A stretch of DNA of 34,503 bases, from assembly GCA_943324415.2 (NCBI GenBank), contig CALPLN020000003.1:1-34503 (forward strand), written 5' to 3'. A program made the position numbers and the translations under genes. Below, one piece after another: positions 8,952 to 9,720 of this stretch. Position 1 is the stretch's first letter. Each line of letters starts with the position of its first letter. The stretch is from Sediminibacterium ginsengisoli (GTDB lineage: Bacteria > Bacteroidota > Bacteroidia > Chitinophagales > Chitinophagaceae). A model generated the notes under the pieces. The model saw nothing but the letters and a program-made list of their open reading frames with translations, was not told where the DNA came from and did not search any database.

Positions 8952-9674
8952 ATGGATTCTTTATTTCTATTAGACGCAACTACAGTGATTGCAAAAACGG
9001 ACTACGTTTCGTTTACTTTCTTTGTAGGCACAATGGCTATGATGGCCGCTTCTGTTTTTTTCTTTTTTGAACTGAACAACACAAGCCAAGAGTGGCGTAC
9101 CTCGGTATTAGTATCGGGTTTGATCACTTTTATTGCTGCAGTTCACTACTATTACATGCGTAGTTATTACGCAGAAACACAGGATTCTCCAACCTTCTTC
9201 CGTTACGTTGATTGGTTGTTAACTGTGCCTTTGATGTGTGTTGAGTTCTACTTAATCACAAAAAAAGCAGGTGGTACAACAAATTTATTATGGAAGATGA
9301 TTTTAGCTTCTGTAGTAATGTTAGTAACTGGTTACATGGGCGAAGCTGGTTTAGGCAACGCTACAGTTTGGGGTACAGTAAGTGCACTTGCTTACTTCTA
9401 CATTGTGTATGAAGTATGGATGGGCGATGTTAAGAAATTAGCAACTAGTGCTGGTACAGCTGTTGCAGCTGCAAACAAAGCATTAGGCTGGTTCATTTTA
9501 GTTGGTTGGGCTATCTATCCATTAGGATATTTAATCGGAACAGCTGAAGGTCAGTGGTATGCAGGATTTGCAAATATTGGCTTGAATATGGATATTGTTT
9601 ACAACATCGGTGATGCTGTAAATAAAATCGGATTCGGTCTTGTTATATATGCATTAAGCAGAAAAACTGCATAA
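8952..9674 (+). CDS. Proteorhodopsin/xanthorhodopsin-like light-driven proton pump (microbial rhodopsin)
   Basis: 'RYVDWLLTVPLMCVEFYLI' gives D87/T91/E98 (DTE) with M95 at the tuning position. Schiff-base lysine K225 is in 'NIGDAVNKIGFGLVIY'. H65 is in 'AAVHYYYMRSYY'. Seven hydrophobic segments are present. Confidence 0.97.
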   Translation: MDSLFLLDATTVIAKTDYVSFTFFVGTMAMMAASVFFFFELNNTSQEWRTSVLVSGLITFIAAVHYYYMRSYYAETQDSPTFFRYVDWLLTVPLMCVEFYLITKKAGGTTNLLWKMILASVVMLVTGYMGEAGLGNATVWGTVSALAYFYIVYEVWMGDVKKLATSAGTAVAAANKALGWFILVGWAIYPLGYLIGTAEGQWYAGFANIGLNMDIVYNIGDAVNKIGFGLVIYALSRKTA

Positions 9675-9688
9675 TACATACTATCTTT

Positions 9689-9720
9689 AAGGGGCGAGTG
9701 AATAACTCGCCCCTTTTTTT
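9689..9720 (+). terminator. Intrinsic terminator after the rhodopsin gene and before blh
   Basis: ggggcgagt-gaata-actcgcccc (stem 9691-9699/9705-9713, extendable by A-T pairs) followed by ttttttt. Confidence 0.93.

Follow-up and report, generated by a model that had tools for sequence, protein, structure and literature searches.

A green proteorhodopsin with a predicted xanthophyll antenna site in a Sediminibacterium-type genome

The rhodopsin locus

The stretch of DNA that we analysed (the window, 34,503 nucleotides) belongs to a Sediminibacterium-type MAG that is 75% complete. It contains a rhodopsin gene followed by a gene for retinal synthesis, with these features:

8952 to 9674, plus strand: proteorhodopsin gene, 240 aa, matching Bac_rhodopsin (PF01036, 1e-40), with a DTE motif
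9210 to 9245, plus strand: helix C motif D87, T91, M95 (predicted green tuning) and E98, read directly
9372 to 9374, plus strand: G141 (GGT), the fenestration glycine by alignment, equivalent to G156 of xanthorhodopsin (XR) and G153 of Kin4B8; Phe in green proteorhodopsin (GPR)
9528 to 9545, plus strand: helix F antenna-site residues Y193, L194, T197 and A198, aligned to Kin4B8 Y204, A205, S208 and Y209
9624 to 9626, plus strand: K225, the retinal Schiff-base lysine, aligned to the GPR and XR lysine
9689 to 9715, plus strand: predicted intrinsic terminator between the rhodopsin gene and blh, a perfect hairpin and then T residues
9732 to 10652, plus strand: blh, predicted to encode a beta-carotene 15,15'-dioxygenase that makes retinal (PF15461, 3e-35; TIGR03753, 137 bits against a cut-off of 95)

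The rhodopsin, which also carries H65 and D221, gave phmmer matches to 9jov (4e-88) and to the GPR entry 7b03 (6e-56). It is 62-63% identical to NM-R1, a protein that we take from its name to come from Nonlabens marinus, 44-46% identical to GPR and 30-31% identical to XR, Gloeobacter rhodopsin (GR) and Kin4B8. Judged by pairwise identity (30-31% versus 62-63% to NM-R1), we rejected membership of the xanthorhodopsin clade. The DTE motif is invariant among relatives of the protein, fragments aside. An earlier note on this DNA gave the exact positions and codons of D87 (codon from 9210), T91, M95, E98 and G141. It predicted an outward proton pump from D87-T91-E98 and green absorption from M95 (Met at position 105), and alignment upholds both predictions. 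The fold, the Schiff-base lysine, the D-T-E residues and a linked blh are all present, and by sequence the protein is a Bacteroidota green proteorhodopsin, predicted to act as an outward H+ pump of the DTE type. Its pumping and colour would be those of characterised relatives.

Blh cleaves beta-carotene to retinal. The blh gene starts 57 bases downstream of the rhodopsin gene, and the hairpin and T-tail lie between them. A strict scan found a perfect hairpin with a T-tail in 24 of the 35 relatives that have blh directly downstream, and imperfect hairpins are visible in several of the other 11. The stems vary on both sides among relatives (GGGGCGAG/CTCGCCCC, GGGGCAAG/CTTGCCCC, GGCCTATGT/ACATAGGCC). 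The terminator suggests a strong rhodopsin transcript with weak read-through into blh; weak blh expression has been described in Dokdonia PRO95 (PMC3587595). More distant relatives (L026, L029, L045 and L050) have the rhodopsin gene, a lycopene cyclase-like gene and blh in that order, whereas the lycopene cyclase gene lies elsewhere in the genome of the window. At two other loci (L032 and L064) the cyclase-like reading frame seems to run on into Blh-like sequence, possibly encoding a CrtY-Blh fusion protein.

The fenestration glycine

A carotenoid site is recognised first of all by a glycine at the fenestration; Gly153 of Kin4B8 is equivalent to Gly156 of XR, and a bulkier residue at position 153 blocks the binding of zeaxanthin to Kin4B8 (PMC12308411). 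The earlier note had placed G141 at this position, with Phe in GPR and Gly in XR, and had proposed alignment to XR, Kin4B8 and GPR. Our alignments confirmed this assignment, and the open fenestration (Gly) stands. Using phmmer against GPR (7b03), we found that helix E aligns without gaps and that G141 lies opposite Phe. G141 also shares its column with the glycine of XR, Kin4B8 and GR. The XR query matched 3ddl over its whole length of 273 residues, and no mismatch was visible. One MAFFT alignment was off by two residues for GPR only, giving Pro in place of Phe; another alignment gave Phe. We therefore ruled out a closed fenestration hidden by misalignment, because helix E is free of gaps in phmmer and the Gly column is common to four carotenoid-binding references.

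We examined how widespread this glycine is among close relatives (80 genome loci and 30 whole-genome loci) and found it in all 109 that were readable, the single gap being a truncated gene. G141 is thus not there by chance. In genome G031 the rhodopsin (locus L239, 3847-4125) breaks off within helix C, at a length of 92 codons, and is followed by an intact blh from 4203; this short gene reflects either a deletion or an assembly error. We also drew an even sample of 396 Bacteroidota genomes, 61 of which have a rhodopsin, and aligned 66 rhodopsins. The glycine was present in every DTE (42/42) and NDQ (17/17) protein and in one DTK and one DTQ protein, and the remaining five (DTY, DTA and TSA types) had Phe or Trp. 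Judged by these sequences, glycine is the standard state for ion-pumping rhodopsins in Bacteroidota. Because it is universal in the group, it is no special property of the window protein.

The helix F site and the closest known structures

Four helix F residues of Kin4B8 (Y204, A205, S208 and Y209) have been named at the antenna site, where a Tyr and a polar residue are tied to the binding of 3-hydroxy xanthophylls; the S208A change lowers zeaxanthin binding to 2%, and Y209F lowers energy transfer from about 40% to 18% (PMC12308411). The Tyr is kept in the window rhodopsin as Y193. The position of S208 is also polar (T197), and that of Y209 is Ala (A198) with E199 next to it. The second polar residue would therefore be missing, unless E199 could stand in for it.

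We built an AlphaFold model of the protein on 22 homologues (mean pLDDT 80.9, pTM 0.80), in which the loop of residues 195-198, with T197 and A198, is of low confidence. The earlier note had called for such a model. Its top Foldseek match among solved structures was 9jou (62% identity, TM 0.89, rmsd 1.7), so that the solved fold nearest to the model is that of NM-R1 with zeaxanthin bound. The title of this entry describes a zeaxanthin-bound light-driven proton pumping rhodopsin, NM-R1. The NM-R1 entries (9jou and 9jov) are cryo-EM structures and are nearest in the PDB both by sequence and by fold; our literature search found no paper for them. NM-R1 and the window protein have in common the DTE motif, Met at 105, the fenestration Gly, the helix F Tyr and Thr, and the fold. 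They differ in helix F, where NM-R1 has Met and Pro and the window protein has Leu and Ala, and in helix E, where NM-R1 has Gly in place of A145. NM-R1 has Pro at the 209 position yet is zeaxanthin-bound, suggesting that binding may do without a second polar residue.

KR1 of Dokdonia, Kin4B8 and EINA29G6 bind lutein and zeaxanthin (PMC12308411). KR1 (Dokdonia eikasta), compared here on less than its full sequence, belongs to the same Bacteroidota proteorhodopsin family as the window protein and has the same helix F Tyr and Thr, but has Asp at the Kin4B8 209 position where the window protein has Ala. Kin4B8 (7ytb, 8i2z) resembles the window protein in its fenestration Gly, helix F Tyr and polar residue at 208; it differs in belonging to the xanthorhodopsin clade, with about 30% identity, and in having Tyr209 as a hydrogen-bond partner. 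GPR (7b03) shares the pump motif and the retinal site at about 44-46% identity, but its fenestration is closed by Phe and it has no antenna, whereas the window protein has Gly.

Host carotenoid genes and the antenna

A search of the host genome for crtZ and other carotenoid genes, which the earlier note had suggested, revealed a crtI-crtB-crtZ-crtY cluster. The crtI gene (NF058655, over cut-off) lies on contig C130 beside MerR and sigma-factor-like genes, and crtB, crtZ and crtY lie on contig C150; the two contigs share an overlap of 141 identical bases where crtI ends. PF04116 was useless as a detector of crtZ, with matches in nearly every genome, and the host CrtZ matches no Pfam or NCBIfam model. 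We recognised crtZ from its place, flanked by crtB and crtY, and searched other genomes with it as the query. The name crtZ rests on this position and on a His-box pattern. With crtI, crtB, crtZ and crtY in the host, zeaxanthin is the expected product and, by gene content, should be available to it.

Based on these results, we think it probable (roughly 0.75) that the window protein is a green-absorbing outward proton pump with a xanthophyll antenna, most likely zeaxanthin, in a freshwater Sediminibacterium-type bacterium. The 3-hydroxylated ring of the host-made xanthophyll would sit in the fenestration opening next to retinal, where Tyr193 and Thr197 of helix F would hold it, and the xanthophyll would pass blue-light energy to retinal. 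Our data show the residues and how they align, the fold, blh as the neighbouring gene, and the genes of the carotenoid pathway, crtZ among them; that the protein binds a carotenoid and receives energy from it is proposed by analogy with characterised relatives. Proteorhodopsins with xanthophyll antennas are already known, either published (KR1) or deposited (NM-R1). The hydroxylated-carotenoid antenna put forward in the earlier note thus gains support as a prediction from zeaxanthin-bound NM-R1, from Y193 and T197 and from the host crtZ, but the glycine from which the note argued is not distinctive.

All 37 genomes searched within the genus carry crtZ, whether a rhodopsin is present or absent. 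Zeaxanthin therefore has other uses, and crtZ permits an antenna without demonstrating one. This independence would also fit a pump that runs on retinal alone in the host, with the Gly an inherited ancestral state and lipid filling the opening. The universality of the Gly in the phylum sample, which extends to the NDQ sodium-pump types, is in keeping with such a pump, as is a genome (G057, 97% complete; locus L107) where a rhodopsin with the fenestration Gly occurs with no match to the host CrtZ. We consider this unlikely, since proteorhodopsins of the same type, KR1 and NM-R1, bind 3-hydroxy xanthophylls, the window rhodopsin retains the helix F Tyr and Thr, and the gene content of the host provides for the ligand.

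If the xanthophyll antenna is in use, xanthophyll-assisted phototrophy would reach freshwater Sediminibacterium, a genus described as ubiquitous in freshwater bacterioplankton (PMC9671011). Since every sampled Bacteroidota rhodopsin of the ion-pump types (DTE and NDQ) has Gly, rhodopsins of this phylum may as a rule use an antenna. This would be a matter of scale and no new mechanism.

Other candidate antenna carotenoids

We set aside a ketocarotenoid antenna when no ketolase (CrtW or CrtO) was seen in the host genome, an absence that weighs little because the genome is 75% complete. The three FA_desaturase matches in the host resemble an acyl-lipid desaturase, an AlkB-like protein and a DesA-like desaturase, and the crtI-family cut-off was passed by CrtI and CrtD only.

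The gene for CrtD (NF042421, 611 bits against a cut-off of 500) lies side by side with a gene for a CruF-like protein (PF04240) on a separate host contig, C9 (locus L162, 1458-4374). CrtD and CruF, together with CrtA-OH, make myxol in Nonlabens spongiae (PMC11855829). By analogy, CrtD and CruF with CrtZ should yield saproxanthin, the product of the myxol pathway minus the 2'-hydroxylase. Our search for CrtA-OH gave no match and its control was equally silent; myxol is thus a further possible product. These adjacent genes raise the prospect that the antenna, in place of zeaxanthin, is saproxanthin or another monocyclic 3-hydroxy carotenoid, with only the beta-ring end in the fenestration, as for salinixanthin in xanthorhodopsin. 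We regard this as quite improbable. The score of CruF is under the NCBIfam equivalog cut-offs, and C9 is placed in the host MAG by binning and composition alone. Furthermore, CruF, and CrtD at equal stringency, are absent from the three genomes nearest by rhodopsin identity (G001, G014 and G028, 94-98% complete), the rhodopsins of which are near-identical to that of the window. It would be a bold guess, and a doubtful one, that saproxanthin is the natural antenna in this lineage, as a hydroxylated counterpart of salinixanthin, and that the type of pigment switches between relatives with near-identical rhodopsins. Zeaxanthin is the ligand that we favour, and the occurrence in one genus of nearly the same rhodopsin with or without crtD and cruF offers a natural test of which carotenoid is used. 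The psi-end carotenoid pathway (CrtD and CruF) is patchy within the genus; genome G007 has the two adjacent, with 82% identity in CrtD.
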